Source of the DNA: an uncultured Alphaproteobacteria bacterium
Lineage (GTDB): Bacteria > Pseudomonadota > Alphaproteobacteria > HIMB59
DNA length: 35,377 nt
Direction: 5' to 3'
Assembly: GCA_902613185.1 (NCBI GenBank)
Contig: CACMGP010000002.1
Coordinates: 1-35,377, forward strand
The notes beneath the pieces were generated by a model. It searched no databases. It had not been told where the DNA came from and saw nothing but the letters and a program-made list of their open reading frames with translations. This document shows, one piece after another, positions 14,348 through 29,773 of the stretch (the stretch's first letter is position 1; each line of letters begins with the position of its first letter). Made by a program: the position numbers and the translations under genes.

Positions 14348-14575
14348 TTATTCTACAGTGGCAATTTTACCACCTACAGGGATCATGTCTCCTTCTTGTG
14401 CAATTATCTCTGTTAATTTTCCATTAACTGTTGAAGGTATCTCAGCAGCTGTCTTATCAGTCTCAACTTCGCAGAGTATATCTCCTTCTTTTATTTCATC
14501 TCCGACTTTTTTAAGCCACTTTACTACTTTTCCCTCGTCAACAGTTTCTCCAAGGGATGGCATTATTATTTCCAT
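14348..14575 (-). CDS. Stand-alone lipoyl-domain protein
   Basis: This is a 75-residue single lipoyl domain, complete from start (MEIIMPSLGETVDEG) to end. The modification lysine is K41 in the canonical VETDKTAAEI turn. Normally this domain is the N-terminal part of an E2 acyltransferase; here the gene stops after the domain, with no E1/E3-binding domain and no catalytic domain. It starts two bases after the E1-beta stop and has a good Shine-Dalgarno (AAGGAG). It is the likely acyl acceptor for the two E1 subunits encoded upstream. How the acyl group reaches CoA is not explained by anything in the window. Confidence 0.9.
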   Translation of the reverse strand: MEIIMPSLGETVDEGKVVKWLKKVGDEIKEGDILCEVETDKTAAEIPSTVNGKLTEIIAQEGDMIPVGGKIATVE

Positions 14576-14577
14576 AA

Positions 14578-15561
14578 TTATTCTCCTTTTAGTTTTTTTA
14601 TAACCTCATTTACAATTAGTTCCACTGAGGGAATTGTATTATCTTCGAGTATGTCAGCACTTGGTAAAGGTACATGTGGTGTAGTTACTCTAGTGACAGG
14701 GCCTTTTAAATTTTTAAAACAATGTTCTGAGATTAAAGATGATATTTCCGCTCCCCATCCACAAAGTCTTGGATTTTCTTCTACTGTCAAGACATGACCA
14801 GTCTCGATTACAGATTTTTTTATTGTTTGTAAATCTAGGGGCACTAGAGATCTCAGATCGATTACCTTTGCATTAATATCGTGTTTGTCTTTCAAAATTA
14901 ATGCAGCCTCTTTTGCTCTTTGTGCCATTAAAGCTAAACCAATAATAGTAATATCTTTTCCCTCGTGAAGCGTATTAGCCTCCCCGATAGGAATGGATAT
15001 ATCAGTTTGTTCAATTTCTTCTTTAAATGCATAAAGTGATTTATGTTCATAAAATATAACGGGATCAGGGTCCTTTACAGCACTATCCATCAAACCCAAC
15101 ACGTCACTAGGGCAGCTTGGTGCGACTACTTTTAAACCTGGTATCATCATAGACCAATTCTCTAAACTTTGAGAATGTTGTGCACCAAATTTTGACCCTC
15201 CACCGTTTGCGGTCCTAATGACCAATGGAATGTTGATTTGGCCATCTGACATATATCTAGTTTTAGCAATTTGATTTGCCACAATATCCCAACAGACAGC
15301 TAAAAAATCTGAAAACATTATTTCTGCTATTGGTCTTAAGCCTGTCATTGCTGCACCCATAGCTGCACCTAAAATCGCCTGTTCTGAAATTGGTGCATCC
15401 ATGACTCTCTCTTTACCAAACTCCTCTAAGAGACCGACGGTCGCTTTAAATACTCCACCCGCAGCACCTACGTCTTCGCCAATAAAAAAAACTTTTTGAT
15501 CTTTTCTCATGGATTGAGCTATAGCGAGTGAAACACTTGCTCTGTATGTTAATTGTGCCAC
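14578..15561 (-). CDS. acoB: 2-oxoacid/acetoin dehydrogenase E1 beta subunit
   Basis: This is the beta subunit (327 residues) of a heterotetrameric thiamine-diphosphate E1 enzyme. Typical motifs are FFIGEDVGAAGGVF, the DAPISEQAILGAAMGAA stretch and AQHSQSLENW (active-site histidines), followed by PGLKVVAPS and YEHKSLY. The C-terminal transketolase-like domain contains VIDLRSLVPLD and VEENPRLCGWG. The overall pattern is closer to acetoin dehydrogenase AcoB than to pyruvate dehydrogenase. It overlaps the alpha-subunit gene by 13 bases, implying translational coupling and equal stoichiometry. Confidence 0.85.
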   Translation of the reverse strand: MAQLTYRASVSLAIAQSMRKDQKVFFIGEDVGAAGGVFKATVGLLEEFGKERVMDAPISEQAILGAAMGAAMTGLRPIAEIMFSDFLAVCWDIVANQIAKTRYMSDGQINIPLVIRTANGGGSKFGAQHSQSLENWSMMIPGLKVVAPSCPSDVLGLMDSAVKDPDPVIFYEHKSLYAFKEEIEQTDISIPIGEANTLHEGKDITIIGLALMAQRAKEAALILKDKHDINAKVIDLRSLVPLDLQTIKKSVIETGHVLTVEENPRLCGWGAEISSLISEHCFKNLKGPVTRVTTPHVPLPSADILEDNTIPSVELIVNEVIKKLKGE

Positions 15562-16553
15562 TCAGAACCTCCATTAGCCCATACATCAGTATATATTTCT
15601 TTAATTTCTGGAATTGGAGAAGTCATGGAAATTTCAGTTGCTTTTTCAACTTGATCCTTAATTTTCTCCTCAATTTCAGAAATTATTTTTTCATTGATAT
15701 TAAAATCTAACAACTTTGCTCTGTAATTTTTTATTGGGTCTTTGTTTTCCATCCAATCTTTTACTTCCTCATCAGGTCTGTACTTACCTGGGTCAGCTCT
15801 TGAATGCCCACTATGTCGATAAGTCTTGGCCTCAATTAAACTTGGACCTTTACCCTCTCTCGCTTTTGAAATAGCTTTTTCTGCTGTTCTGAGCATTTCA
15901 TCAGCATCATTTCCGTCCACAATAATTTTATCTAAATCGTATGCACCTGCTCTATCAGCAGCTGGGTGCTCAACAGCAGTAACTTCATGAATTGGTGTAT
16001 ATTCCATATATAAATTATTTTCACAAACAAAAACTATGGGTAAATTCCAAATTTTTGCCATGTTCAATGCCTCATGGAATGCTCCGATATTCGTAGTACC
16101 GTCTCCAAAAAAGCAAACGCTTACCTCATTTGTTTTATTATATTTTGATGCTAAAGCAGTGCCATTGGCTATAGTTAAATGAGCACCTATAATAGCATAT
16201 GAACCCATAACTCCATTATCTACATCTGTAAGATGCATGGATCCTCCTTTACCTTTCATCAAGCCACACTGTCTACCCATTAATTCTCCTAAAACTCCCT
16301 CGATTGAGGATCCTCTTGCGAGTGTATGTGCGTGCCCACGGTATGTGCAAAATGTATAATCGCCCTGTTTCAAGGCGACTCCAAAGGCACCTGCAATAGC
16401 TTCCTGACCTAGAGCTAAATGGCTAGTACCTTTGATAAGATTTTGAAGAAAAAGATCATATGCTTTTTTTTCGACTAACCTTAATTTCAGCATCATTTCC
16501 CATAATTGAAGTCTTTTCTCTTCTCCTATATCGTCATTTAATTTATCTACCAT
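15549..16553 (-). CDS. acoA: 2-oxoacid/acetoin dehydrogenase E1 alpha subunit
   Basis: This is the thiamine-diphosphate-binding alpha subunit, 334 residues. The TDP motif starts at GDGTTNIGAFHEALN (150-164) and ends at the VFVCENN segment around 174-180. The active-site loop region TYRHSGHSRADPGKYR near 255 is typical of the family. The LYMEYTP segment after the TDP motif favours acetoin dehydrogenase (AcoA) over pyruvate or branched-chain enzymes. Its ATG overlaps the M24 gene's stop by one base. With E1-beta and the lipoyl protein it would carry out decarboxylation or C-C cleavage of a 2-oxo acid or ketol, transferring the acyl group to lipoamide. Confidence 0.87.
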   Translation of the reverse strand: MVDKLNDDIGEEKRLQLWEMMLKLRLVEKKAYDLFLQNLIKGTSHLALGQEAIAGAFGVALKQGDYTFCTYRGHAHTLARGSSIEGVLGELMGRQCGLMKGKGGSMHLTDVDNGVMGSYAIIGAHLTIANGTALASKYNKTNEVSVCFFGDGTTNIGAFHEALNMAKIWNLPIVFVCENNLYMEYTPIHEVTAVEHPAADRAGAYDLDKIIVDGNDADEMLRTAEKAISKAREGKGPSLIEAKTYRHSGHSRADPGKYRPDEEVKDWMENKDPIKNYRAKLLDFNINEKIISEIEEKIKDQVEKATEISMTSPIPEIKEIYTDVWANGGSEWHN

Positions 16554-17842
16554 TAATATTTATTAGCTATAGGTAGATCTTCAGCGGGAAACAAGGAAAT
16601 CACTTGGCATCCTTTATCAGTAACAATCAATTCTTCTTCAATTCGCGCGGCAGAATAACCATCTTTTGCAGGACAGTAGGTTTCAAGAGCAAAAACCATT
16701 CCTTCTTTAATTTCGTCAGGTGAGTCCATTGAAACCAATCTACTGATTATTGGTCTTTCATGAATTGCCAAACCTAAACCATGTCCAAACTGTAATGCGA
16801 ATGCTGACATTTCATTTGCAAAACCAAATTCCTCAGCCTTCGGCCATACTGATGCAATTTTATCTGTAGATACTCCAGGTTTTACAAGTTCAATGGCTTT
16901 GTCTAGCCACTCTCGACATTGCTTGTAGGCATCATTTTGAGAGTCTGATGCCCGTCCAATATTGAAGGTTCTATAATAACAGGTCCTGTAGCCCATATAA
17001 GATTGAAGTATGTCAAAGAAAGCTTGATCACCAGGTCTAAAAATTCTATCTGTAAAATTATGTGGATGCGGATTACATCTTTCGCCTGAAATGGCATTTA
17101 TTGCTTCAACATCATCTGAACCAAGTTCGTATAAAAGCTTATTTGCATTGGCAACTATTTGGGCTTCACTAACGCCAGGCTTCATAGTCTCATAAATTTG
17201 ATGATAAGTTGCATCAACCATCGATGCAGCCTGGTTTAATAACATTAGCTCATCTCTTGATTTTATTTCCCTGGCTTCAAGAAGAATTTGCTGTCCATCA
17301 ATTATCTCTAAACCCTCTGCTTGAAGAGCAAACATCATTGCTGGTTCAACAAGATCCACACCTACGGGTTCATTTGCTACTCCCTTCTCATTTAACATTG
17401 ATTTTATTTCTTTTGCAGCATTTTTCATTAATCCTGCATCAGGATGAACTGTACCCCTTAAGCCTACCATCCCTGCCTTCCAATTTTCTTTTGGAAGCCA
17501 AGGCGAAAATAATTGGTGATGTTTAGCAGCTGAACCGAAATCCCACAGCACAGGATCATGGTCTTGAGCTAATAGAGAATATCTACATATTTTGTCTCTT
17601 GACCACTCTCCAATAACTGTGCTTGTGAGATATCTGATGTTGTTATTATCAAAACAAAGGAGTGAACCGGCTTTTGAATTTTTTAGAGCCTCTCTAGCTC
17701 TTCCCAGTCTATATTTGTGAAGTCTAGGAAAGTTAATTCTCTCTTCATAATCTACATTTGTTCTTCCATGTGATGGTACTCTTCTATGCCAATCGTAATT
17801 TGGATTTATATCTTCAGGTTTTATGATTGAAGGTTCGCTCAT
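16553..17842 (-). CDS. M24 (creatinase/prolidase-fold) family protein
   Basis: This is a 429-residue 'pita-bread' fold protein with an N-terminal creatinase-like domain (to about 190) and a C-terminal M24 domain. Metal-site candidates by alignment to prolidase are D277 (FFDI), H354 (GHGLG), E387 (ALETY) and E402 (RIEEEL), with the proton-shuttle-type H361 (IHERP). The second aspartate, expected 11 residues after D277, is C288 (TCYYRT). It is therefore not a standard two-metal aminopeptidase. Relatives with altered metal sites include creatinase, ectoine hydrolase and the DMSP lyase DddP. Its setting between an SDR and E1-alpha suggests that it prepares a small substrate. Function is open. Confidence 0.8.
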   Translation of the reverse strand: MSEPSIIKPEDINPNYDWHRRVPSHGRTNVDYEERINFPRLHKYRLGRAREALKNSKAGSLLCFDNNNIRYLTSTVIGEWSRDKICRYSLLAQDHDPVLWDFGSAAKHHQLFSPWLPKENWKAGMVGLRGTVHPDAGLMKNAAKEIKSMLNEKGVANEPVGVDLVEPAMMFALQAEGLEIIDGQQILLEAREIKSRDELMLLNQAASMVDATYHQIYETMKPGVSEAQIVANANKLLYELGSDDVEAINAISGERCNPHPHNFTDRIFRPGDQAFFDILQSYMGYRTCYYRTFNIGRASDSQNDAYKQCREWLDKAIELVKPGVSTDKIASVWPKAEEFGFANEMSAFALQFGHGLGLAIHERPIISRLVSMDSPDEIKEGMVFALETYCPAKDGYSAARIEEELIVTDKGCQVISLFPAEDLPIANKY

Positions 17843-18646
17843 TTATTGAATTACCATTCCTCCATCAATCATAAGTATTTGTCCTGTCATGTAATCAGAC
17901 TCACTAGACGCTAAAAATGATGCTGTGCCCACGACGTCTTCAGGATAGGAATACCTCTTCATCAAAATCATATTCTCTGCAATTGAGTCCATCGACTCTC
18001 CGGGTTTATCGAATTTTCCAATTGCAACTAAATCTTTATCTAGTTGCTCCCATAACTCTGTTCTTACTACGCCAGGGCCATATCCATTAACGGTAATGCC
18101 ATGCTCAACTAAACTTTTTGCACCACCTTTTATTAAAGCAGCTATGGCATGTTTGCTCATTCCATAAACCACAACATCATCAAAAGTTTCCCTGGATAAA
18201 ATAGAAGCTACATGAATAATTTTATATGGTTCTTTTTGTTTACCTTGTTTAATCATTTGCCGAGCTTGTTCTTGCATACCTAAAAGAGCTCCTCGAACAT
18301 TTATATCCATAATAAAATCATAATTTTCCTCAGTTATATCCATGAAGAAGAGTGGTTTGTTTACTCCAGCATTATTTATAGAAACATTAAGACTACCAAA
18401 ATTTTCAACTGTTGCTTTTACAGCAGCTATGTGATCTTCACGATTTCTCACGTCTACTTTACATGAAATAGCCTCACCTCCAGCTGACCTAATTCTCTCT
18501 TCAACCTCTTTACAACCGTCAAGGTTTACATCTGTTAGACAAATTTTGGCTCCTTGGGCAGCAAAGTGCTCACCTACTGCAGCGCCCATACCTTGTGCAG
18601 CTCCAGTAATTAGGACATTTTTCCCTTTTAGTCTCTCTTTATCCAT
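17843..18646 (-). CDS. SDR oxidoreductase, 2,3-butanediol/acetoin reductase type
   Basis: This classical short-chain dehydrogenase of 267 residues has the cofactor motif TGAAQGMG at 14-21, NNAG at 91-94 and the catalytic triad S148, Y161, K165. The C-terminal half strongly recalls acetoin reductase/butanediol dehydrogenase (BudC): GITVNGYGPGVV, TELWEQLD, then SDYMTGQILMIDGG. Given acetoin-dehydrogenase-like E1 genes downstream, a ketol or diol substrate is plausible; sorbitol- or galactitol-type activity is an alternative. It is the first gene after a 69-base gap that holds a promoter candidate, an operator-like palindrome and a good Shine-Dalgarno (GGAGG). It probably heads a sub-operon. Confidence 0.87.
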   Translation of the reverse strand: MDKERLKGKNVLITGAAQGMGAAVGEHFAAQGAKICLTDVNLDGCKEVEERIRSAGGEAISCKVDVRNREDHIAAVKATVENFGSLNVSINNAGVNKPLFFMDITEENYDFIMDINVRGALLGMQEQARQMIKQGKQKEPYKIIHVASILSRETFDDVVVYGMSKHAIAALIKGGAKSLVEHGITVNGYGPGVVRTELWEQLDKDLVAIGKFDKPGESMDSIAENMILMKRYSYPEDVVGTASFLASSESDYMTGQILMIDGGMVIQ

Positions 18647-18663: not shown

Positions 18664-18669
18664 ATTATA
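18664..18669 (-). promoter_or_regulatory. Candidate -10 element of the SDR sub-operon
   Basis: TATAAT is read on the minus strand, followed within a few bases by the GGAGG ribosome-binding site of the SDR gene. The centre of the operator-like palindrome lies 39 bp upstream of this hexamer, the same distance as at the SBP promoter. Confidence 0.45.
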
Positions 18670-18676
18670 TAATATG

Positions 18677-18700
18677 TATTTGAATTACTGACTTCAAATA
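18677..18700. repeat. Second inverted repeat overlapping the operator edge
   Basis: TATTTGAA (18677-18684) and TTCAAATA (18693-18700) form a perfect 8-bp inverted repeat with an 8-base spacer. Its half-site shares the TTCAAATA core with the neighbouring palindrome and could be an auxiliary binding site. Confidence 0.4.
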
Positions 18701-18716
18701 TATTCAAAATGAATAT
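18700..18716. promoter_or_regulatory. Operator-like palindrome, copy 1
   Basis: ATATTCAAAATGAATAT is made of perfect 7-bp arms around a three-base AAA centre. It sits between the second permease gene (ending in its stop codon) and the SDR gene, about 54 bases upstream of the SDR start. Near-identical sites occur at 23495 and 27012, each at another promoter of the sugar/inositol genes. Confidence 0.65.
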
Positions 18717-19750
18717 TATCTACCTAAAGCCGATCTCTTTTTTTCCAGCAAAGATGTTTTTCGTTCATCAATTGTGGCAAGCAGACTTTTCCTAGCTTGC
18801 CGCGAGTCAAATACCCTAGACATAGTTTGGAAAACTATAACGATTACCAAAAGCACTGATGTAAATAATTGAACAAAATGAACCTGAAGTGCATAGAATA
18901 CGAGACCAGTATTTAAAAAATTAACTGTTAAAGCTCCGATAGCAGCTCCTAAAACACCACCCTTTCCCCCTAGTATACTCACACCTCCAACAAAAGCTGC
19001 TACAGTTCCTGCTAAAAGAAGGTATTGCAGTCCTAAGCCTTGAGCCGTTCCTGATTTCAAACCAATTACAGTTCCAGCAAAACCGGCACAAAAACCTGAT
19101 AGCGCAAAAGCTATAATCATTGGGCGTCTTAAAGGTATACCTGCAGTAAGTGCTTCTTTTCTTGCACCACCGATCGCATATATTTCTCTTCCATATTTTG
19201 TGTAACGCATAAAAATTCCTACACAAATGAATATGAAGATAACCGTTAGGCTAGCAGGAGAAAAATACATTAAAACTTTAGTAGTAATAAAATCAGGAAC
19301 TCTAAAATCTGTTAACATAACCGTTTTTTCTTCAGCAATTAGTAAAGCCACACCTCTAAGCAACATTAGCGTACCAACTGTAATCACAATCGCTCTTATT
19401 CTTATGAAAGCTATAACAAAACCTTGTGTTGCACCGATTAAAGTTGAAACTGAAAGTCCTATAATCATCGCTAATGGGGCGCCTAAGGGGTCTGTTAATT
19501 TTACAACTATCACAGCGCATAGGGCTGCGTTGGACCCAATTGATAAATCAATTTCTCCAGCAATTATACAAATTGTTAATGCTAAACCTACAAGACCCAA
19601 GACTGCAAACCTTTCAAGAATAGCGAAACTAATATTGTGGCTAAAGAAAACTTCAATATTAATTGCAAAGAATACGTAAACACAAAATGATAATAAGATT
19701 GCAAAAGAGAGATCTACATCTTTAGTAATCTTTTTTATAAAATTTTCCAT
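18716..19750 (-). CDS. Sugar ABC transporter permease (RbsC type), second permease
   Basis: This is a 344-residue inner-membrane permease with about eight to ten hydrophobic segments. The family motif GEIDLSIGSNAALCA is near residue 65 and AFVGGVSILGGKGGVLGA near 255, both hallmarks of the ribose/rhamnose/autoinducer-2 permease family. It follows the first permease with a one-base overlap (base 19750). Systems with two different RbsC-type permeases include Lsr (AI-2) and RhaPQ (rhamnose), so a heterodimeric channel is likely. The C-terminal tail is rich in Arg and Lys. Confidence 0.92.
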   Translation of the reverse strand: MENFIKKITKDVDLSFAILLSFCVYVFFAINIEVFFSHNISFAILERFAVLGLVGLALTICIIAGEIDLSIGSNAALCAVIVVKLTDPLGAPLAMIIGLSVSTLIGATQGFVIAFIRIRAIVITVGTLMLLRGVALLIAEEKTVMLTDFRVPDFITTKVLMYFSPASLTVIFIFICVGIFMRYTKYGREIYAIGGARKEALTAGIPLRRPMIIAFALSGFCAGFAGTVIGLKSGTAQGLGLQYLLLAGTVAAFVGGVSILGGKGGVLGAAIGALTVNFLNTGLVFYALQVHFVQLFTSVLLVIVIVFQTMSRVFDSRQARKSLLATIDERKTSLLEKKRSALGR

Positions 19751-20790
19751 TATTCCTGAGCCCTACTTCCTTTAGCAAATAAACCAAAAACAATGATACT
19801 AAACACGATCATTAAGCCCACACCAACTATTCTAGGTCCACTATTAAATCCTTGTAAAACCATCATATTATCAACCATAGCAATAAAAATTGCTCCCAAA
19901 CTAGTTCTTAAAGTAGATCCATAACCACCCATTATTGAATTTCCACCAACCATGACAGTTGCTATAACGAGTATTGTCATATCACCTGATGATCCAAATT
20001 CTGCAGAAAAATAATTAGATTGAGCACTATCCATTTGAGCAACAAAAGCTACTGCAACAAATGCACAACAAACAGAACAGATTGTGAAAACAATTATTGC
20101 CATGGAAAAATTTTCATGGCCAGTGGCTTTTCCAGCAGCTTTGTTTGCTCCAACTAAATAAACTTTCCTTCCAAAATTTGTATGTCTTAAAACTATCTCA
20201 GCTGCAATGGCAATTAAAATAAAAGACCATGTGATACTTGGAAGACCCAAAAAAGAACCAGTTCCTAACCATTCTGCATCATGAGGTCTAGTAAAGTTTA
20301 TTACAAGGTTATCACTCCACCATGCACCAATACCATATAGGATGCCTGCTCCACCTAATGTTACTACAATTGGGTTTCCTCCCATTCCAACAAAATATCC
20401 TTGTATTACTCCACTTACGACACCTACTGCTAAAGCAGCTAATAGTGAAACTAAAAAGTTTCCTGCAAGATCCGGTGATCCAAAACCAGTAGCCATACCC
20501 ATGGCAAACGTAACACCACAAATTGATGCTGTTTCTTTTAATGACAATAAAAAAAAATTTCCTGACAAAGTTACAAATGTAAGTCCTATAGCCATAATGC
20601 CATATAGTGCTGCATCTCTGATAATTGCTTTAAAATTGGTTATTGTTAAATAATTTTCTGTGAAAAAAATTCCATATATAAACATCACAGCAAAAAGTGA
20701 CAACAAAATAGCAAGAAGTGTGCGATCTTTATAGAATTGTAGAAATTTTGCAGAAAAAGGTAATTGATTATTTTCGATGATAGCACTCAT
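19750..20790 (-). CDS. Sugar ABC transporter permease (RbsC type), first permease
   Basis: This 346-residue multi-span membrane protein is related to the next permease but clearly distinct. The motif after the second helix is LSGNFFLLSLKETASICG, where the usual (E/D)IDLSVG core of the family is altered. The C-terminal loop VMVGGNSIMGGYGSTLRTS matches the family. It overlaps the ATPase gene by four bases (ATGA type). The altered first motif suggests that the two permeases are not equivalent. Substrate is unknown; a sugar or polyol is likely from the surrounding genes. Confidence 0.9.
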   Translation of the reverse strand: MSAIIENNQLPFSAKFLQFYKDRTLLAILLSLFAVMFIYGIFFTENYLTITNFKAIIRDAALYGIMAIGLTFVTLSGNFFLLSLKETASICGVTFAMGMATGFGSPDLAGNFLVSLLAALAVGVVSGVIQGYFVGMGGNPIVVTLGGAGILYGIGAWWSDNLVINFTRPHDAEWLGTGSFLGLPSITWSFILIAIAAEIVLRHTNFGRKVYLVGANKAAGKATGHENFSMAIIVFTICSVCCAFVAVAFVAQMDSAQSNYFSAEFGSSGDMTILVIATVMVGGNSIMGGYGSTLRTSLGAIFIAMVDNMMVLQGFNSGPRIVGVGLMIVFSIIVFGLFAKGSRAQE

Positions 20791-22295
20791 AGGTTTGTCT
20801 CGTTAAATGGGTCAGTAATCTCTTTAAGAATAAGAGGTGTTTTAATTTTTTCTAATCGGTGTTCATCAATCATCATTCCTCTATAAAATGTAATCACCCT
20901 GTCAGGAAGATATGTGATTTCTTGGATATCAGTTGAGGCAAAAATAATTGTAATTCCCCTTGCTGCTAATTCTCTCATTCTTTGATATATCTCTGATTTA
21001 GCACCAACATCAACACCTCTTGTCGGCTCATTCACAAGCAATACATCGGGCTTAATTGAAAGCCATTTTCCTAATGCTACTTTTTGTTGATTTCCGCCAC
21101 TTAAAAGACCTGACTCATCGTGCATTCTTTTGACATCAATTAAGAACTCTTTTGCTAAATTTTTGGAATAATTATCCTCAGAACTGCCAAAGTTAAAACC
21201 ATATTTTGATATAGCACCAAGTGCTGGGGATGTTAAATTCTCAAATATTGGACGTCCAAGAAAAAGACCATCTTTTTTTCTATCGGAGGAGCAATATGCG
21301 ATTTTTTTCTTTATAGCATGACTTGGTGATTTTGGTAAAAAGGTTTCACCGTTCAAAGTGAGTGAACCTGATCTAGATTGAAGTGCGCCTGCTATGGAGG
21401 CTAATACTTCACCTGCTCCACTACCAAGTTGCCCAGAGAGTCCAAGTATCTCTCCCTTGAAGGCTGAAAAACTAACCGGCTCTAAAACGCCATCAGGCCA
21501 AAGTTCTTTTACTTCTAATTTTGGATCATCACTTATATGGTCAGCTTTTGATGGGAACATATTTGCCAATTCTCTTCCAAGCATAATTTCAACTAGTTTA
21601 TTTACATCAATATCTTTAGTTTCTTGAATACCTTGACTTACTCCATCTCTTAATATTGTTATTCTTTTTGTAATCTTAAAAATTTCGTCCAGTCTATGAC
21701 TTACATATATTATTGATTTACCATTTGCTGCAAGACGCTCAACCATTTCTAAAATTCTTCGACTCTCTGCTTCACCCAACGCAGCTGTAGGCTCATCTAA
21801 AATTAAAATTTTTGCTTCTCTCGAAATTAATCTAGCTACTTCTACCAAATGTTGTTCACCAACAGATAATAAATTTATTCTAGTAGTTGGGTCTACTTCA
21901 GTTAATCCAACTTCATCAAGATATGGGCGTGCCATCTTTGCTAATGTATTAAGAGTGGCAAATTTTTTTACTTTAGCCCCAGTAAGAAAAATATTTTCTG
22001 CAACTGACATATTAGGAATCAAGCTTAATTCTTGTTGAGCAATAGCTATGCCAGACTCCTCTGCTTGTGAAGGCGTTTCAAATTTTACTTCTTTACCATT
22101 GATTTGATAGCTGCCTTTAAAACCTGGGTCAAATCCACTTATAATTTTTACAAGAGTTGATTTTCCAGCTCCATTTTCTCCAACTAGTCCCATAATTTCA
22201 CCTTCATTTATCTCAAAATTTGCCTCTTTTAGAGCCTGTATTGCACCAAAAGTCCTGGAAACTTTTGAAATTTTGAGAATTGGATTTGTGGACAT
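20787..22295 (-). CDS. Sugar ABC transporter ATP-binding protein (RbsA type, two ABC domains)
   Basis: This is a 502-residue fused double ATPase. In domain 1, Walker A GENGAGKST is at 39-47, the signature is LSVGEQHLVEVAR and Walker B is ILILDEPTAAL. In domain 2 the Walker A is degenerate (GQLGSGAGEV), as usual in RbsA, whereas the signature LLSGGNQQKVALGKWL and Walker B VLLVNEPTRG are intact. It powers import through the two RbsC-type permeases encoded next. An intergenic hairpin separates it from the binding-protein gene upstream, which fits the usual excess of binding protein over membrane components. Confidence 0.95.
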   Translation of the reverse strand: MSTNPILKISKVSRTFGAIQALKEANFEINEGEIMGLVGENGAGKSTLVKIISGFDPGFKGSYQINGKEVKFETPSQAEESGIAIAQQELSLIPNMSVAENIFLTGAKVKKFATLNTLAKMARPYLDEVGLTEVDPTTRINLLSVGEQHLVEVARLISREAKILILDEPTAALGEAESRRILEMVERLAANGKSIIYVSHRLDEIFKITKRITILRDGVSQGIQETKDIDVNKLVEIMLGRELANMFPSKADHISDDPKLEVKELWPDGVLEPVSFSAFKGEILGLSGQLGSGAGEVLASIAGALQSRSGSLTLNGETFLPKSPSHAIKKKIAYCSSDRKKDGLFLGRPIFENLTSPALGAISKYGFNFGSSEDNYSKNLAKEFLIDVKRMHDESGLLSGGNQQKVALGKWLSIKPDVLLVNEPTRGVDVGAKSEIYQRMRELAARGITIIFASTDIQEITYLPDRVITFYRGMMIDEHRLEKIKTPLILKEITDPFNETNL

Positions 22296-22331
22296 ATTAA
22301 AAGAGATTGTACACCTTTTTTATTTATTAAC

Positions 22332-22360
22332 TACACACAGGGATGGTTCCCCTGTGTGTA
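22332..22360 (-). terminator. Hairpin between binding-protein and ATPase genes
   Basis: ACACACAGGG and CCCTGTGTGT form a perfect 10-bp stem with a 7-base loop, extended by one T-A pair. On the transcribed strand no T-run follows, so it is more likely an mRNA-stabilising or partial-attenuation element protecting the binding-protein message than a full terminator. Confidence 0.75.
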
Positions 22361-22385
22361 AAAATTATTATGAAGAGACTAAAGC

Positions 22386-23429
22386 TTAGTCCCAAGCACC
22401 TGAGCAAAGCTCGTTGATGCCATATAACTTACCATCAAAGCCTCTAAGTGCTGTGAAGTCCATAGTGGCACCAGTCACTGAAGGGTTAGGCGTAAAGTTA
22501 ATGTAGTTTGCTAGCTTACCGTTCTCCATGTACTCTTTAACAAGAGCTATAGCTAATTGACCTTCATGAAGAGGTGATTGTAGAGTAGTACCAAATTGCT
22601 TTCCATCAGTAATCATCTGCTTATCACCGTTACACACAGTACCAACTGTAATGACAGCATCACTATCTACACTGCCACTTTTGCCAGTACCTGCATACCA
22701 GTCAACATTATAACCAGCTTCTTCTAAAGCCTTAATACCACCAGTTAAGATAGCGTCGTCCATACCATATACAAAATGAATTCCCTGATCTTTAACTTTA
22801 GCTATTAGCTTAGCTGCTCCTTTATAACCGTTAGCCTGTCCAAATCCCTCACCGATGTCACCGATAAGATTTAAGTCAGTTCCAGCGATAGCTTGTTTGA
22901 AAGCATTTATTGATAAGCCATATCCACCGTAAGAATGAGGATATGATAATGCAATTACATTATATCCATCTCCACCAGCAGCTTGTTTCATCTTCATAGC
23001 TTTAACCATCATCTCACCTGCGTTATAAGCGCGAAGACTATCATCTGGTCCGGCATATCCAAAGATGAATGCTTTATCTTGCTCATTAGGTAACTGATTG
23101 ATTTTTAAAACTGGTACTCCAGTTTTAGCAAGCTTTCTTAACGAACCTAAACCCGCAACAGCATCAGGTGGCCACCAAATAAATACATCAGGTAGTGCGC
23201 CACTTGACAAGTATTGTTCTACTTGTTGGTTTTGCTCTGCTTGGTTATAGTTGTTTTCAAAAACAGTAATATCATAGCCATATTGCTCTGCTGTAGCTTT
23301 AATACCTTTAACGAACGCACCAACATAAGCCTCAGATGATGCAGCATTAAAAGAAACGATTTCAACTGCTTTAGCTGAACCGAAAGAAAAGCACATTAGA
23401 ACAGCTAATACTTTTATTAGTTTGTTCAT
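22386..23429 (-). CDS. Periplasmic sugar-binding protein (type I, RbsB-like)
   Basis: This is a 347-residue solute-binding protein with a signal peptide cleaved probably after A21 (SAKA). The mature part has the type I periplasmic-binding fold (FVKGIKATAEQYGYD, ALPDVFIWWPPDAVAG, FVYGMDDAILTGGIKALEEAG). Three cysteines remain, of which two near the C-terminal half could pair. A strong Shine-Dalgarno (AGGAGG) precedes the ATG. Codons look cleaner and GC is slightly higher than in neighbours, as is common for highly expressed binding proteins. It heads the long catabolic block and is divergent from the HTH-SBP regulator gene across a 112-base promoter region containing the operator-like palindrome. 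Confidence 0.94.
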   Translation of the reverse strand: MNKLIKVLAVLMCFSFGSAKAVEIVSFNAASSEAYVGAFVKGIKATAEQYGYDITVFENNYNQAEQNQQVEQYLSSGALPDVFIWWPPDAVAGLGSLRKLAKTGVPVLKINQLPNEQDKAFIFGYAGPDDSLRAYNAGEMMVKAMKMKQAAGGDGYNVIALSYPHSYGGYGLSINAFKQAIAGTDLNLIGDIGEGFGQANGYKGAAKLIAKVKDQGIHFVYGMDDAILTGGIKALEEAGYNVDWYAGTGKSGSVDSDAVITVGTVCNGDKQMITDGKQFGTTLQSPLHEGQLAIALVKEYMENGKLANYINFTPNPSVTGATMDFTALRGFDGKLYGINELCSGAWD

Positions 23430-23458
23430 ATTGATCCTCCTAATATCCTTATCTTTAA

Positions 23459-23464
23459 ATTATC
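23459..23464 (-). promoter_or_regulatory. Candidate -10 element of the sugar-binding-protein gene
   Basis: GATAAT is read on the minus strand. The operator-like palindrome centre (23503) is 39 bp upstream. A small hairpin (AGAGAT / ATCTCT, 23477-23491) lies between them, near the expected -35 position. Confidence 0.35.
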
Positions 23465-23494
23465 TATGATTTATTAAGAGATTTAATCTCTAAT

Positions 23495-23511
23495 ATATTC
23501 AAATTGAATAT
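23495..23511. promoter_or_regulatory. Operator-like palindrome, copy 2
   Basis: ATATTCAAATTGAATAT is made of perfect 8-bp arms around one central base. It lies between the divergent binding-protein gene (start 23429) and regulator gene (start 23542). It sits far upstream of the former's -10 but overlaps the expected -35 of the latter, the arrangement expected of a regulator that controls a target and itself from one site. Confidence 0.7.
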
Positions 23512-23522
23512 TTTAATGAATT

Positions 23523-23528
23523 TATAAT
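23523..23528 (+). promoter_or_regulatory. Candidate -10 element of the HTH-SBP regulator gene
   Basis: A perfect TATAAT lies 13 bases before the ATG at 23542. The predicted leader is only about seven bases and has no Shine-Dalgarno (the region reads AATCCCCTCAA). Confidence 0.5.
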
Positions 23529-23541
23529 ATAATCCCCTCAA

Positions 23542-25227
23542 ATGAATAGAAACGAGATAATCACTCTTTTAAAATTCGTAGATAAAACGAGACTTTTATT
23601 TAACAGATCTATTTCAATTAAAACAATTGACGCTGATTGGAATATTTTTTCTTATGTCATCATCAACCATCTTGACAATAAAATTACCACTACTACGAGT
23701 ATCATACAGGCATCAGGTTTGCCATTTGCAACTGGTTTGAGAAGAGTAAAAAAACTCATTCAAGAAAAAAAATTAATTCAAAGATCAAAAACTAAGTCAG
23801 GTAAATCTTTCTCTATTCATCCAAGTAGTAATCTTATTAAAGAATTCACAGATTATTTACTTTCAATCAAAAAAGAGGTGGCCTTGAACTTAGGTTACAA
23901 CGATTTTAATGACAATTATTTTTTTGGAACATCATTATCCGCAGGAAATATTATACCTGCTCCAAATGTTATAATTAATCAAAATAAAAAATATAAAAAA
24001 ATTAACTTTCTTGCCAATGATAATCCCACATTTAAAGTAATAAATAAGAATATTGATTTTTTTGAATATATACTTGATTGTGAAATTGAACTTACTATAG
24101 AAGGTGATTTGAATAAACTACTTAATGAAATAATTAAAAATTCCTCATCAAATAAAAAGTCTAAATTTGACATTGTTGCTTTTAATATTCCATGGATTGG
24201 ACAGTTAACTAAATTAAATTGCCTTCTTCCTTTAAATAATTTTGTGAAAGATGTTGGGATAAATTTAAATGACTTTCACTATTCAGGAGTAAGATCAAGT
24301 TCTTTTAATAAAAAACTTTATGGGATACCAATCGAGGCAATTCCTGATCTATTATTTTATAGAACAGATATTTTTCAAAAATATGCTTTGAGTCCACCAA
24401 AAACATTTCAGGATTTGCTCCGTGCCTGTGATGTATTAAAAGCTGATAAACAGATAGAAAGTCCTATTTCTTGGCCAGCTAAAAAAGGACAACCACTTGC
24501 CACTAGTTTTATATTAGCTATGGCAAATTATGGAAAACCATATGTAAACCTTAGGTACATTGGAAAAAATATTTATGATTTGGACGTAGAAAAAACACTT
24601 TTAAAGGCAAATTTTTTATCTGATGCATCTTTTGAGGCAGCAAAAATGTTGAAAAAATTGACAGCATACTCACCAAACGAGCTATCTGCTCATTCCAATG
24701 ATGAATGTGTTGAATATTATAGTCAGGGTAAATCAGCAATGGTAATGAATTGGAGTAGTAGAGCACATTTGTTTGAACTAAATGAGGCTTCACCCGCATA
24801 CAAGAAAACTGGTTATTTACCAAGACCTGCTGGAAATTCCTCTTTTCAAGTATCTCCAATAGGTGGGTTTTCGTTGGGTATACCTTCAAATATCTCTCCT
24901 GAAAAAATACCTTTTGTTATGAAAAATATTCGAAATTTTGTCTCTCCTGAGTTTATAAAATATTATATCGAACATGGCAGTTTATCATCTCCCGTTTTTA
25001 GTGTCGTTAATGATCCTGAAGTAAGAGCTCTTAGTCCAATATTTAATGAAATTGATAAAATGGAAAAGGAGGAAAAAATTATAGAGTGGGCAAGATATCC
25101 TCTACCGACCTATTCAAATATTATTGAAGATGTTGGTCATAAAATTTATGAGTATATTTTTTTGAATAAGGATTTGGAAGCTACACTAAAAAGTTGTCAA
25201 CAAAGTGCCGAAAAATATTTAAATTAA
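23542..25227 (+). CDS. Winged-helix regulator fused to a MalE-like solute-binding domain
   Basis: This 561-residue protein has no signal peptide or membrane helix, hence is predicted cytoplasmic. Residues about 33-95 look like a winged helix-turn-helix (TTSIIQASGLPFATGLRRVK as the HTH, then a basic wing KLIQRSKTKSGKSFSI). Residues about 155-555 match the family 1 extracellular solute-binding fold: FDIVAFNIPWIGQL, LLPLNNFV, KLYGIPIEAIPDLLFYRTDIF, PPKTFQDLL, and later GKSAMVMNWSSRA. I infer a one-component transcription factor that senses a sugar-like ligand with a domain normally found in the periplasm. The logic resembles SgrR, which uses an unrelated SBP family. It is divergent from the transporter operon and close to three copies of one palindrome. 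Confidence 0.85.
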   Translation: MNRNEIITLLKFVDKTRLLFNRSISIKTIDADWNIFSYVIINHLDNKITTTTSIIQASGLPFATGLRRVKKLIQEKKLIQRSKTKSGKSFSIHPSSNLIKEFTDYLLSIKKEVALNLGYNDFNDNYFFGTSLSAGNIIPAPNVIINQNKKYKKINFLANDNPTFKVINKNIDFFEYILDCEIELTIEGDLNKLLNEIIKNSSSNKKSKFDIVAFNIPWIGQLTKLNCLLPLNNFVKDVGINLNDFHYSGVRSSSFNKKLYGIPIEAIPDLLFYRTDIFQKYALSPPKTFQDLLRACDVLKADKQIESPISWPAKKGQPLATSFILAMANYGKPYVNLRYIGKNIYDLDVEKTLLKANFLSDASFEAAKMLKKLTAYSPNELSAHSNDECVEYYSQGKSAMVMNWSSRAHLFELNEASPAYKKTGYLPRPAGNSSFQVSPIGGFSLGIPSNISPEKIPFVMKNIRNFVSPEFIKYYIEHGSLSSPVFSVVNDPEVRALSPIFNEIDKMEKEEKIIEWARYPLPTYSNIIEDVGHKIYEYIFLNKDLEATLKSCQQSAEKYLN

Positions 25228-25228
25228 A

Positions 25229-26050
25229 TTATTTTATTTCCATTTTTTCTGCAGGCTGAGGTGGTGCAAAAGGATACCCTCCCCACACCGACTGATCAAA
25301 GTTTACAACAGAACCTGTCATCATACCTGAGTCATCAGATGCTAAAAATGTTACTGCTTTAGCTACCTCCTTTGGATCAAGCAATCTTCCAAATGGTTGA
25401 GCTTTACCAGCATCTTCTAGCCAATTTTCTGAGGCGCCATGATATTTTGTTTGAATCTCATGCTCTCCATCCGAAGCCATCCAACCAATATTTAATTGAT
25501 TAACTCTTATTTTATTTTTTAATAATGCGAATGCTGTATTTCTAGTTAATGTTGCAAGAGCCCCCTTTGATACACAATAAGTTGATATGAATGGTTGGCC
25601 AGTCATAGCTGCTACAGATCCAATATTAATTATTGAACCTTCTATGTTTTGTTCAATCATAATTTTCACAGTATCTTGAATTAAAAAATAAGGACCTTTT
25701 AAGTTGGTACCTATCATTTTATCGAATAATTCTTCGCTCGTATTAACAATATCTCCCCTATCAGTAATACCGGCAGCGTTAACAAGAACATCCAATCTCC
25801 CAAATTCTTGTTTGGCAACTGAAACTGCATTTCTACACTCTTGGACCTCTCCTAGGTCTGTTTTTACAAAAATTACTTTACATCCAGTTTCATCTTGAAT
25901 TTTTTTTGCTACCTCATTTCCTTTATCTTCTTTTCTACCAATTGTGACAACACCTTCAGCTCCGCTATCAGCAAAATTTTTTGCGATTGCTGCCCCTAAA
26001 CCTTGTGTTCCTCCAGTCACTAGTGCAAACTTTCCCTTAATACTATTCAT
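25229..26050 (-). CDS. SDR family oxidoreductase beside iolE
   Basis: This classical SDR has 273 residues. The cofactor motif TGGTQGLG is at 12-19, NAAG at 91-94 and the catalytic triad S145, Y158, K162. The C-terminal part has an unusual substrate loop (NIGWMASDGEHEIQ ... YHGASENWLEDAG) and ends FDQSVWGGYPFAPPQP instead of the common DGG tail. Its ATG overlaps the iolE stop by eight bases, so it is translationally coupled to inositol catabolism. It may oxidise another inositol isomer or a ring ketone derivative; the exact substrate cannot be read from sequence. Only one base separates its stop from that of the convergent regulator gene. Confidence 0.87.
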   Translation of the reverse strand: MNSIKGKFALVTGGTQGLGAAIAKNFADSGAEGVVTIGRKEDKGNEVAKKIQDETGCKVIFVKTDLGEVQECRNAVSVAKQEFGRLDVLVNAAGITDRGDIVNTSEELFDKMIGTNLKGPYFLIQDTVKIMIEQNIEGSIINIGSVAAMTGQPFISTYCVSKGALATLTRNTAFALLKNKIRVNQLNIGWMASDGEHEIQTKYHGASENWLEDAGKAQPFGRLLDPKEVAKAVTFLASDDSGMMTGSVVNFDQSVWGGYPFAPPQPAEKMEIK

Positions 26051-26954
26051 CTCTATAATCCTCTATCTCATATCCATACATACTTAAGCACTCTACAAGT
26101 TCTTTATTTCCAATTTTAGCGTATTCAAATGGGTTTGCTTTGGCAGGATCTTGCTCTGCCTCGACAATGAACCATCCCTCGTAGTTATTATTTGATAATG
26201 TCTCAACTACTTCCTTAAAATTAATATTTCCATCTCCAGGTACTGTGAAAGCCCCTTCTAACACAAAATCTAAAAAACTTTTTTTTGATCGATCTAAATC
26301 ATTTACAACCTTTGAACGAATGTCTTTAGCATGAAAGTGATTTATTCTTTTTGCATATTTATTTATTACTCTCAAAGAGTTGCCTCCTGCAAAGGTCATA
26401 TGGCCTGTGTCAAATAAGATTTTTACTGCCTCACCTGTGTGGTTCATCAATTTATCAAGCTCATCCTCAGTCTCAATCGCTGTACCCATGTGATGATGAA
26501 ATGAAATTGGCACACCAAAATCTGCGCAAAATTCTGCAAATAATGTTAGTTTTCTTCCATACTCTCTAAAGTCCTCACTGTGTATTTTTCTTTTTGTGTT
26601 TAAAGGAGCATTTCTAATATTTTGGATAGTTCCAGATGTTTCTCCATATGCTAAAACTGCTGCGCCTAGGTCTCTGAAGAGAGTGAGTTGTTGAAGGACT
26701 TTATCTTTTTCATTTTCTAGGTCATTATCGAGCACAGTTCCTGAATACCACCCTGATGCCAGGTATAATTTGTGATTTTTTAAAATTGGACCTAGTTTTT
26801 CAGGAGTTTTTGGAAATTTTCCACCTGTTTCCACACCTGTAAATCCAGCAAGTTTTGACTCACTAAGGCAGGTATCCAAGGAAGTCTCTCCTCCAAGTTC
26901 AGGTAAATCATCATTGGACCATGCTATGGGTGCTATTCCCAATTTTGCTTTCAT
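26043..26954 (-). CDS. iolE: myo-inosose-2 dehydratase
   Basis: This 303-residue TIM-barrel enzyme of the AP-endonuclease-2/xylose-isomerase-like superfamily dehydrates 2-keto-myo-inositol to 3D-trihydroxycyclohexane-1,2-dione. The N-terminus GIAPIAWSNDDLPELGG and the ETGGKFPKTP segment are signatures of IolE. Metal and substrate residues lie in SFHHHMGTAIE, LFDTGHMTFAGG and HFHAKDIR, with the late glutamate in WFIVEAEQDP. A strong GAGGAGG ribosome-binding site precedes the ATG. It is divergent from iolG, and the shared promoter region carries the third palindrome copy. Confidence 0.95.
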   Translation of the reverse strand: MKAKLGIAPIAWSNDDLPELGGETSLDTCLSESKLAGFTGVETGGKFPKTPEKLGPILKNHKLYLASGWYSGTVLDNDLENEKDKVLQQLTLFRDLGAAVLAYGETSGTIQNIRNAPLNTKRKIHSEDFREYGRKLTLFAEFCADFGVPISFHHHMGTAIETEDELDKLMNHTGEAVKILFDTGHMTFAGGNSLRVINKYAKRINHFHAKDIRSKVVNDLDRSKKSFLDFVLEGAFTVPGDGNINFKEVVETLSNNNYEGWFIVEAEQDPAKANPFEYAKIGNKELVECLSMYGYEIEDYRDE

Positions 26955-26973
26955 AAACCCCTCCTCAAGAAAG

Positions 26974-26979
26974 ATTATA
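26974..26979 (-). promoter_or_regulatory. Candidate -10 element of iolE
   Basis: TATAAT is read on the minus strand, a few bases before the GAGGAGG ribosome-binding site. The palindrome centre (27020) is 41 bp upstream. Confidence 0.45.
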
Positions 26980-27011
26980 AATAAATAAACCTTTTAAAGA
27001 ATACTTAAATT

Positions 27012-27028
27012 TTATTCAAAATGAATTT
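27012..27028. promoter_or_regulatory. Operator-like palindrome, copy 3
   Basis: TTATTCAAAATGAATTT has the core ATTCAAAATGAAT (27014-27026) identical to copy 1, with only the outermost bases changed. It is centred between the divergent iolE and iolG genes. It belongs to the same motif family as the sites at 18700 and 23495. Confidence 0.65.
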
Positions 27029-27056: not shown

Positions 27057-27062
27057 TATACT
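27057..27062 (+). promoter_or_regulatory. Candidate -10 element of iolG
   Basis: TATACT lies eight bases before the ATG with no Shine-Dalgarno between. The palindrome centre is 37 bp upstream. Confidence 0.4.
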
Positions 27063-27070
27063 TCTGTGAT

Positions 27071-28075
27071 ATGAAAAAAGTCAGTATTGCAGTTATTGGG
27101 TGCGGGCGTATTGGCCAAATGCATGCTAAGAATATTCAACTTCATGAACAGACAAATTTAGTATGCATTTATGACCCAAATGAAGAATTTGCAAAAAAAG
27201 TATCAAATGATTTAAGCGTACTTGCTGTGAAAAGTGTTGACGATATTTTTAACAATAATGATATTGATGCTGTTCTTATATCTTCCCCAACAAATACACA
27301 TATTGATTTCATAGAAAGATCTGTTGCATCAAAGAAACCTGTTTTGTGTGAGAAACCTATTGACCTCGATATAAAAAAAGTAAATGAGTTTTCAAAAAGA
27401 CTTCTAGGTAATAAAGTTCCAATACAATTAGGCTTTAATAGAAGATTTGATCCTGGTCATCAGGCTGCAAAAAAATCTTATATTGATGGTGAAATTGGTG
27501 AGCTTCATCAATGTCTGATTACATCTAGAGATCCTGGTCTGCCGAGTTGGGATTATTTAAAAGTGTCTGGTGGGCAATTTAGAGATATGACAATTCATGA
27601 TTTTGATTTAGCCCGTTTTATGCTTGGTGAAGAACCAGTTAAAGTATTTGCAATTTCTAATGCTTTAATAGATCCAAAAATAAAATCTGAATTAAATGAT
27701 AGTGACACCTTGATGATCATAATGGAAACAGCCTCGGGGAAACAATGTCACATAAACAACTCTAGATCAGCAACTTATGGATACGATCAAAGAGTTGAGT
27801 TGTTTGGAAGTAAAGGGATGGTTATATCTGAAAATAGAAAGCCACATGAATTGAAAAAATATAATTCAGAGTTTGTTGATAAGAGTGAGCCCTATTTAAA
27901 TTTTTTTATTGAGAGATACCAAGAGTCTTATATGAATTCTATTAGCTCATTTGTCGAAACAATTTTGGAAAAAAAGCCTGTATCTGTTGGCTTTGAGGAC
28001 GGAAGAAGAGCTCTTCTCTTAGCCGAAACTGCCTATAAATCTGTCAAAAGTGGGAGGATGGAAAATATTGATTAA
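27071..28075 (+). CDS. iolG: Inositol 2-dehydrogenase
   Basis: This NAD-dependent enzyme oxidises myo-inositol to 2-keto-myo-inositol, the first catabolic step. At 334 residues it has the usual IolG length. The Rossmann motif IGCGRIG is at 9-15, and catalytic K95 lies in CEKPIDLD. D172 and H176 in RDMTIHDFDLARF fall at the same numbers as in Bacillus subtilis IolG. The segments QLGFNRRFDP and NNSRSATYGYDQRVE are further IolG signatures. It is divergent from iolE, which encodes the next enzyme. Scyllo- or chiro-inositol activity cannot be excluded. No Shine-Dalgarno is seen. Confidence 0.93.
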   Translation: MKKVSIAVIGCGRIGQMHAKNIQLHEQTNLVCIYDPNEEFAKKVSNDLSVLAVKSVDDIFNNNDIDAVLISSPTNTHIDFIERSVASKKPVLCEKPIDLDIKKVNEFSKRLLGNKVPIQLGFNRRFDPGHQAAKKSYIDGEIGELHQCLITSRDPGLPSWDYLKVSGGQFRDMTIHDFDLARFMLGEEPVKVFAISNALIDPKIKSELNDSDTLMIIMETASGKQCHINNSRSATYGYDQRVELFGSKGMVISENRKPHELKKYNSEFVDKSEPYLNFFIERYQESYMNSISSFVETILEKKPVSVGFEDGRRALLLAETAYKSVKSGRMENID

Positions 28076-28981: not shown

Positions 28982-29773
28982 CTATACGGCCTCAAGCTCT
29001 TTTGCTAGATCACCTATTTGAGCGCCACCAGCCATTAAACGCTTAACATCATCTCCGCCTAATTCTGATGACTTTCCAGATCCTATTACTTCACCCAAGC
29101 TTAAAAATGTAAATCGATCAGCTATTAGCCTCGCATGGATTTCATTGTGAGTAATCAAAATAATTGCGATATTCCCTAATTGTTGGACTTTTTTTATAGT
29201 CTTTAATACTTCCATTTGTTGTTTTTGTCCAAGAGCCGATGTTGGCTCATCCAAGATTAATATTTTAGCTCCAAAGTATATCGCTCTAGCAATCGCCAAA
29301 GTTTGTCTCTGTCCTCCAGACATCGTACCTACTAACTGAGTCGGATCAGAGATATTTATTCCTATCTTGCCCATCTCAGCGATAGTAATTTCATTCATAT
29401 TTTTAAAATCTAATATTCCAAGAGGTCCTGGGCCTTTTTTTAACTCATTACCCAAAAAAAAGTTTCTAGTAACCGATGTAAGTGCGTTCAATGCTAAATC
29501 TTGGTAAACAGTTCCTATGCCTGCGCTTGTAGCTTCTCTTGGGGATCCAAATTTCACTTCATTTCCATCAACTTTAATCACACCAGATGTAGGTTTGTGA
29601 ACACCTGATAAAACTTTTATCAGAGTTGATTTTCCGGCACCATTATCACCAAGAAGTGCGTGAACCTCTCCAGGCAAAACATTTAAGGAGACACCGTTCA
29701 GTGCTGTGAATGTACCAAACTTTTTAACTAAATTTGTAATCTCAATAAATGGGGCTTGATTATCTTGACCCAT
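28982..29773 (-). CDS. Sugar ABC transporter ATP-binding protein (FrcA type, single domain)
   Basis: This is a 263-residue single ABC domain, unlike the double RbsA-type protein of the other transporter. Walker A GDNGAGKST is at 42-50, the signature is MSGGQRQTLAIARA, Walker B is ILILDEPTSAL and the H-loop is ITHNE. The closest class is FrcA/IatA, which forms homodimers for fructose or inositol uptake. Its start overlaps the permease stop by one base. With the iol genes beside it, inositol or another simple sugar is a reasonable substrate, but this is inferred from position only. Confidence 0.93.
   Translation of the reverse strand: MGQDNQAPFIEITNLVKKFGTFTALNGVSLNVLPGEVHALLGDNGAGKSTLIKVLSGVHKPTSGVIKVDGNEVKFGSPREATSAGIGTVYQDLALNALTSVTRNFFLGNELKKGPGPLGILDFKNMNEITIAEMGKIGINISDPTQLVGTMSGGQRQTLAIARAIYFGAKILILDEPTSALGQKQQMEVLKTIKKVQQLGNIAIILITHNEIHARLIADRFTFLSLGEVIGSGKSSELGGDDVKRLMAGGAQIGDLAKELEAV

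Follow-up and report, generated by a model that had tools for sequence, protein, structure and literature searches.

Several well-known one-component regulators, among them LacI, LysR and SgrR, are based on binding-protein folds. In the LacI family, a LacI helix-turn-helix (HTH) is joined to a type I periplasmic-binding-protein domain and acts at a palindromic operator on a local catabolic regulon. LysR-type regulators combine a winged helix and a two-lobed periplasmic-binding-protein-like sensor with a divergent target, an activator-like operator position and autorepression, and SgrR of E. coli unites an N-terminal domain of its own with SBP_bac_5. Here, we describe a locus in a 35,377-nucleotide stretch of DNA (the window) from an uncultured alphaproteobacterium of the HIMB59 lineage (assembly GCA_902613185.1, contig CACMGP010000002.1), in which three palindromes, O1 to O3, accompany genes of sugar and inositol catabolism and a gene for a putative fusion regulator of 561 amino acids (aa). 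It is very probable that these palindromes are the operators of this protein (23542–25227), a MarR-like/MalE-type one-component regulator that would activate its targets and repress itself. The features concerned are the following:

18701–18715, no strand: putative operator O1, TATTCAAAATGAATA, between a permease gene and the SDR-E1-iolCB block
23496–23510, no strand: putative operator O2, TATTCAAATTGAATA, between the divergent genes for the transporter solute-binding protein (SBP) and the regulator
27013–27027, no strand: putative operator O3, TATTCAAAATGAATT, between the divergent iolE and iolG
23542–25227, plus strand: regulator, 561 aa, with a predicted N-terminal MarR-like winged helix and a MalE-type solute-binding (SBP_bac_1/8) domain
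23542–23901, plus strand: predicted DNA-binding domain, residues 1–120 (AlphaFold2 model; weak HTH_24/MarR matches in some relatives)

Like the LacI family, the system would be a one-component sugar regulator with an HTH, a binding-protein-derived sensor, a palindromic operator and a local regulon; unlike it, the protein carries a MarR-like DNA-binding domain and an SBP_bac_1/MalE-like sensor, and Pfam gives no LacI assignment. A winged helix, a binding-protein-like sensor and a divergent target gene are shared with LysR-type regulators, but neither a LysR HTH nor a LysR substrate domain was matched by Pfam, and the sensor has full MalE size (~400 aa). The fusion of an HTH to a solute-binding domain of the ATP-binding cassette (ABC) type recalls SgrR, whereas neither the SgrR N-terminal domain nor SBP_bac_5 was matched by Pfam. 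The predicted DNA-binding fold comes closest to that of the MarR family, with weak Foldseek support (best E 0.005), but a ligand domain is fused behind it and the window protein has no MarR match in Pfam. NCBIfam and Pfam hold no name for this architecture, and among the literature matches listed we found no protein described that combines this operator with a MarR-like winged helix and a MalE-type domain.

Pfam matches in the regulator (SBP_bac_1, E 8e-19; SBP_bac_8, 9e-17) fall inside residues 189–492. The N-terminus has no match, and the whole protein searched at E up to 5 yields these two models only. Both were matched in all 11 family members compared, which align over their full length, and some of these show weak matches to HTH_24, HTH_36 or MarR (the last weak in 2 of 11). 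Modelled by AlphaFold2 from 20 DNA-binding domains, the 120-residue domain reached a mean predicted local distance difference test score (pLDDT) of 92.5, with helices at 3–24, 31–44, 51–58, 62–74 and 96–117 and wing strands at 78–82 and 90–94. In a Foldseek search with this model, the nearest solved structures were mostly of MarR type. A full-length model matches the sugar-binding proteins 5iai, 6dtq and 1eu8, in agreement with the sequence search.

Palindromes in the window and the source genome

All three palindromes are intergenic, as the original prediction had stated, and the coordinates it gave (18700–18716, 23495–23511 and 27012–27028) are one base wider on each side than those listed above. 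O1 directly adjoins the end of the permease open reading frame (ORF) at 18716–19750, inside a series of same-strand genes. In the source genome (1,350,150 bases in 11 contigs, 92% complete), exact matches to TATTCAAAWTGAATW occur at O1, O2 and O3 only, and besides these, eight places match with one mismatch, seven of them within ORFs and one at a gene junction. The prediction had also placed further sites at other sugar genes, such as iolD and iolA, and none was found in the genome. Relaxing the consensus to TATYCANNNTGRATA adds just two exact matches (L196:1501–1515 and L006:1501–1515; L and G numbers denote loci and genomes), one at the end of an sdhB-like ORF, closely followed by an mdh-like ORF, and the other across a gene junction. 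We rejected these two, TATCCATTTTGGATA and TATTCATAATGAATA, as operators on account of their places and of the presence of the same words in regulator-less genomes of the genus. Among the matches listed, both words are found again in genus genomes whether or not the regulator is present, so that they are independent of it. The regulon thus looks local to one cluster.

Within the window, where no other copy had been found by eye, there is no further exact match, and one copy with a single mismatch, TATACAAAATGAATT, lies at 22768–22782 within the transporter SBP gene. Of the 21 cluster loci of the genus, 15 have this near-operator at ≤2 mismatches; the SBP is 91–100% identical in them, and coding constraint may account for the recurrence. 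Another near-perfect palindrome, AGAGATTTAATCTCT, occupies 23477–23491, with its centre 19 bp from O2; it is retained in most of the closest relatives (≥97%) and not in the 72–77% clades. A window scan at ≤3 mismatches gave 39 matches against 24.6 expected, a number reached by 4 of 100 shuffles and weak on its own. In the second sugar ABC operon of the window (28982–32436), nothing comes within 2 mismatches of TATTCAAWWTGAATA. No terminator was detected in a scan around O1, O2 and O3, and an Rfam scan of the window returned nothing reaching the gathering threshold.

Conservation within the genus and order

The order was sampled with 162 genomes, 52 from the window's own genus (HIMB59/AEGEAN-169 lineage) and 110 from the other family; 34 of them match the regulator at E ≤ 1e-20, including matches to the SBP part or the DNA-binding domain only. 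Across the 21 cluster loci compared within the genus (L042–L062), O2 is present throughout, 20 times exactly and once with one mismatch, and an O1-type site stands upstream of the SDR gene in all 21 (19 exact, two with one mismatch). The expectation that the sites would be kept at orthologous promoters was thus borne out in full for O1 and O2 and for O3 in just 16 of 20 loci, and the three behave together as the single operator set that had been proposed. Among eight diverged representatives, identity is 0.95 in the core of O2 and 0.55 in the remainder of the intergenic region. The O1 core reaches 0.87 against 0.56 in the flanks (seven rows), or 0.98 against 0.68 when L062, where the site is shifted in the alignment, is left out.

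A full or partial regulator orthologue was found in 27 genomes of the genus, with the 5' end of the gene assembled in 25, and O2 is exact in 24 of these 25 and has one mismatch in G115. The two excluded genomes are G158, at a contig edge, and G133, in which the ATPase gene runs into the regulator; the contig of the latter (L035) passes from ATPase residue 162 straight into regulator residue 192, by assembly fault or rearrangement. Among the 29 genomes of the order that carry the SDR, O1 is exact in 27 and has one mismatch in two. Exact matches to TATTCAAAWTGAATA number 54 in the 52 genus genomes, where the reversed control gives a single match; O1 and O2 account for 51 of the 54. In the 110 genomes of the other family, 32 exact matches compare with 42 in the control. 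We rejected these as further regulons: 30 of the 32 were examined, all 30 lie in stop-free frames of at least 250 codons, and most share one recurring context.

In genome G152, the SDR block is preceded by a paralogue of the regulator (41% identity; L054:12318–13961), and an exact operator at 14063 separates the two. An iolG-like gene (43%) follows the paralogue, and iolE has no match in the retrieved stretch. Free-standing homologues of the DNA-binding domain alone (144–146 aa, 45–48% identical) occur at L039:1495–1935 and L064:9813–10247, between genes that read as creatininase-like and cyclase-like. They end in a stretch resembling the fusion linker and look like derivatives that lost a former sugar-binding domain. 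Near homologues of this kind, L039 and L064 contain just 2-mismatch places for the operator, and L063 one 1-mismatch place 8.5 kb off.

The motif beside regulator homologues in other bacteria

Regulator homologues in roseobacters, rhizobia and Vibrio share 27–34% identity with the window protein, and TATYCANNNTGRATA often occurs at the promoters of their clusters. In Vibrio penaeicida, a full-length homologue (33%) has as neighbours genes for E1 alpha (63% to the window's), an iolG-like protein (37%) and the end of an M24 protein (73% over 66 residues), together with genes that read as E1 beta, aldehyde dehydrogenase (ALDH), lipoyl E2 and a sugar ABC importer. The intergenic palindromes of this locus, TATCCAAAATGGATA, TATTCATAATGGATA and TATCCATTATGGATA, are 2–3 mismatches from the HIMB59 form.

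The consensus TATYCANNNTGRATA was set from HIMB59 and Vibrio only and left unchanged for 29 further loci. Plasmids of roseobacters, rhizobia and Skermanella supplied 18 of these, drawn from 31 records at E ≤ 1e-40 (13 records, of further Phaeobacter, Tritonibacter and R. tumorigenes, were left out), and 11 came from two overlapping searches at class and phylum level, one of 385 genomes with 8 matching at E ≤ 1e-70 and one of 398 with 6, the window's own genus included in these counts. The upstream region scored comprised the 500 bp before the first aligned residue plus 20 inside, 15 kb in total. Where shuffles predict 0.043 sites at ≤1 mismatch, it contains 17, and at ≤2 mismatches 29 compare with 1.0; the remaining 335 kb have 6 sites at ≤1 mismatch. 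A site at ≤1 mismatch lies upstream of the regulator in 13 of the 29 loci, as it does in the window itself, and many of the loci with the motif have 56–66% GC. A related palindrome accompanies the homologues of other families and of Vibrio, which makes the HTH-SBP protein the likely binder of the sites, as had been proposed.

The sites occur in recurrent arrangements. Two sites, each at ≤2 mismatches, stand exactly 21 bp apart in 9 of the 29 loci. In rhizobial loci, the regulator comes after an oxidoreductase gene, and seven loci have a site with 0–2 mismatches before that gene: in the divergent region in L184 (exact), L169 (1 mismatch), and L183, L186 and L187 (2 mismatches); at the same distance in the unannotated L189, where an exact site becomes part of the oxidoreductase frame if this is read at its longest; and again at this distance, with 2 mismatches, in L191. 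A site just behind the regulator is present in L185 (exact) and L168 (2 mismatches). L192 and L193 have 2-mismatch sites only, before a permease gene. In L194, where the SDR, M24 and SBP are 70–73% identical to the window's and the regulator 32%, the divergent SDR/SBP region contains an exact site at 4452 and a 1-mismatch site at 4472, and another exact site stands at 15993 before the M24 gene. Among 51 hand-picked promoter sites, base 4 of the half-site is T in 93% of cases in HIMB59 and C in 83% elsewhere.

Gene content varies around this core. In six roseobacter-type loci (L162–L167), the SDR (57–59%) and M24 (65–67%) are clearly related to the window's, E1 alpha is 37–38% identical, and the divergent periplasmic SBP is 23% identical or under threshold, so that a different importer is indicated there. 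The Skermanella locus L161 has the SDR (50%) and no match for M24 or E1 alpha. The M24-family gene (16553–17842 in the window) accompanies the SDR in HIMB59, in the six roseobacter-type loci and in L194, a pairing that suggests a shared catabolic step. The constant part is thus the regulator with its putative operator and a sugar importer, often with the SDR and M24. In the 31 plasmid records, the homologue is annotated as an extracellular solute-binding protein in 25 and as a "periplasmic component of sugar transport system" in one, and five have no annotated gene there; with such annotation, members would have been missed as regulators. We consider it probable that these proteins form a family without a Pfam or NCBIfam name, represented in several families of Alphaproteobacteria and in at least one Vibrio, in which a MarR-like winged helix captured a cytoplasmic MalE-type domain as its sugar sensor and the members have the operator TATYCANNNTGRATA in common. 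One earlier study reports 30 novel regulators (PMC5507952), and this type may have been predicted among them.

Gene cluster, mode of action and ligand

The remaining genes of the cluster are as follows, those on the minus strand first:

22386–23429, minus: periplasmic sugar-binding protein of an ABC importer (Peripla_BP_4)
20787–22295, minus: sugar ABC transporter ATPase
19750–20790, minus: ABC permease (BPD_transp_2)
18716–19750, minus: ABC permease (BPD_transp_2), followed by O1
17843–18646, minus: SDR dehydrogenase, first gene of the block behind O1
16553–17842, minus: M24 peptidase-family protein (weak DddP match, 114 bits against a cut-off of 600)
15549–16553, minus: E1 alpha of a 2-oxo acid or acetoin-type dehydrogenase
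14578–15561, minus: E1 beta
14348–14575, minus: free-standing lipoyl domain, 75 aa
12866–14323, minus: ALDH
11699–12856, minus: Gfo/Idh/MocA oxidoreductase
10702–11664, minus: iolC-like kinase (297.5 bits, under the NCBIfam cut-off of 300)
9859–10701, minus: iolB-like isomerase (158.5 bits, under the NCBIfam cut-off of 205)
9032–9862, minus: class II aldolase (iolJ position)
26043–26954, minus: iolE, inosose dehydratase (TIGR04379 above curated cut-off)
25229–26050, minus: SDR oxidoreductase behind iolE (NF004847 above cut-off)
27071–28075, plus: iolG, inositol 2-dehydrogenase (TIGR04380 above curated cut-off)

Two divergent pairs flank the operators, with the regulator (plus) facing the SBP gene (minus) across O2 and iolG (plus) facing iolE and its SDR gene (minus) across O3. 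The periplasmic SBP weakly resembles ribose-binding proteins. A second sugar transporter at 29773–32436 shows lower identity in several genomes (SBP2 89%, permease 91–92%) than the adjacent genes (≥95%), which hints at segment replacement. Two promoter-like elements were read next to O1 and O2:

18669–18697, minus: TTGAAG-17-TATTAT, SDR block (1 found against 0.8 expected in shuffles, weak on its own); O1 sits 3 bp upstream of its predicted −35
23504–23533, plus: TTGAAT-18-TATAAT, regulator (1 found against 1.4 expected, weak on its own); its predicted −35 falls within O2

By our reading of the −10 boxes, the operator edge lies upstream of the presumed −10 by 26 bp for the SDR, 29 bp for iolG, 31 bp for the SBP and 33 bp for iolE, and by 17 bp for the regulator itself. 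The contrast between 26–33 bp at the targets and 17 bp at its own promoter fits activation of the targets combined with autorepression. The presumed −10 boxes of iolG (27057–27071) and of the regulator (23528–23542) are just 8 bp away from the start codons that follow them, a spacing suggestive of leaderless transcripts.

These observations can be brought together in a mechanism in which we infer direct binding, dimerisation, a ligand, activation rather than repression of the targets, and autorepression. The regulator would be a cytoplasmic one-component homodimer reading TATYCA-N3-TGRATA, with TATTCA as the half-site in the HIMB59 lineage and mostly TATCCA elsewhere. The importer encoded alongside would take up a sugar or cyclitol, and this would bind the solute-binding domain and change the state of the dimer, which would then switch on the importer, the SDR-E1-lipoyl-ALDH-iolCB block, iolE with its SDR gene, and iolG. 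At its own promoter, where the operator covers the −35 region, the regulator would limit its own expression.

Several results weigh against this reading. On the side of the protein, the MarR matches in Foldseek have E values of 0.005 or worse, with none at 0.001, and the full-length model, built from 14 sequences, is poor (pLDDT 62). In the source genome, TATTCAAAWTGAATW at ≤1 mismatch shows no excess, as its 12 strand matches compare with 10 in the reversed control, so that the signal consists of the exact sites, their places and their conservation. O3 is lacking from 4 of the 20 loci having both iolE and iolG (L054 lacks iolE). It is missing from the alignment in L055–L058, which make up a 76–77% clade and keep both genes, and this is a natural loss of one regulon member. 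Because this clade lost the site and that of L062 is shifted, the O3 core has an identity of just 0.19 among diverged representatives, against 0.56 in the flanks. In 22 genus genomes without a regulator or SDR orthologue, TATYCANNNTGRATA still occurs 38 times against 19 in the control, a surplus that comes in part from two recurrent words in and around coding sequence.

The wider comparison has weaknesses of its own. Sixteen of the 29 test loci have no site at ≤1 mismatch upstream of the regulator, and the loci are partly dependent (two Phaeobacter, two Shinella, L187 and L191, three from G829 and two from G277). In the stretches first read, L164, L168, L172, L177, L186, L187 and L191 have 2-mismatch sites only, and L182, L188 and L190 have none at ≤2 mismatches; a wider stretch round L182 (L195) yielded just the place already counted in L193. 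Lastly, the sigma-70 scan gives one candidate per region, not above shuffles (0.8–1.4 expected), so that the promoter statements rest on the reading of −10 boxes. The sole match between iolE and iolG (27084–27055, on the iolE strand and beyond O3) conflicts with the −10 boxes as read and would put O3 downstream of the start.

This last match, together with the 3 bp that separate O1 from a −35 hexamer, near enough to hinder polymerase, and the −35 of the regulator gene covered by O2, would suit a classical repressor with the same operators, which would block all promoters until released by its ligand. MarR-type and LacI-type regulators are often repressors, and we regard such a mode as possible, though the less probable one. 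At four targets, however, the operator edge 26–33 bp upstream of the presumed −10 has the usual position of an activator site, and the operator reaches the promoter core only at the regulator's own promoter. The paired sites 21 bp apart are likewise common for activators, without being proof.

As to the ligand, myo-inositol or an early inositol intermediate would make the protein the inositol regulator of this lineage, an identity that we consider rather doubtful. In its favour, iolE and iolG exceed their curated cut-offs (iolC and iolB fall below), an operator stands between them in 16 of 20 loci, and an iolG-like gene (37%) lies near the Vibrio homologue. Against this, iolE, iolG, iolB and iolC gave no tblastn match at E ≤ 1e-8 in the 19–20-kb stretches of L161–L167, and L194 contains just a partial iolG-like match (29%); one clade lost the iolE/iolG site, and the periplasmic SBP has its weak resemblance to ribose-binding proteins. 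In the absence of iol matches from L161–L167, the label of inositol regulator is not established, and inositol is likely part of the chemistry of this cluster rather than a constant of the family.

It is very unlikely that another transcription factor reads the palindrome and controls the same cluster, with a different role for the HTH-SBP protein. Further regulators are present in these genomes, but the palindrome lies near HTH-SBP genes in several alphaproteobacterial families and Vibrio, in varied gene orders. The order's other family yielded no full-length homologue, and the 30 of its 32 exact matches that were examined all fall in long stop-free frames. Palindromes arising by chance in AT-rich DNA, or a DNA structural element or terminator to which no dedicated regulator belongs, are an extremely improbable explanation, since for all the AT-richness of the window, the mild enrichment at three mismatches and the lack of a genome excess at one, the three exact matches of the genome all lie in one cluster, the sites are conserved across diverged orthologues and free of terminator-like elements, and the motif stands upstream of relatives' genes in many loci of 56–66% GC.

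The proposed architecture resembles that of synthetic allosteric biosensor regulators made from binding domains (PMC6079105). More generally, proteins annotated as extracellular solute-binding (25 in the 31 plasmid records) may in reality act inside the cell as transcription factors. The HIMB59/AEGEAN-169 lineage would have a local switch dedicated to sugar, whose readable operator yields a testable regulon. A known operator would also allow the regulon to be searched for in new genomes and the ligand to be assayed by gel shift.

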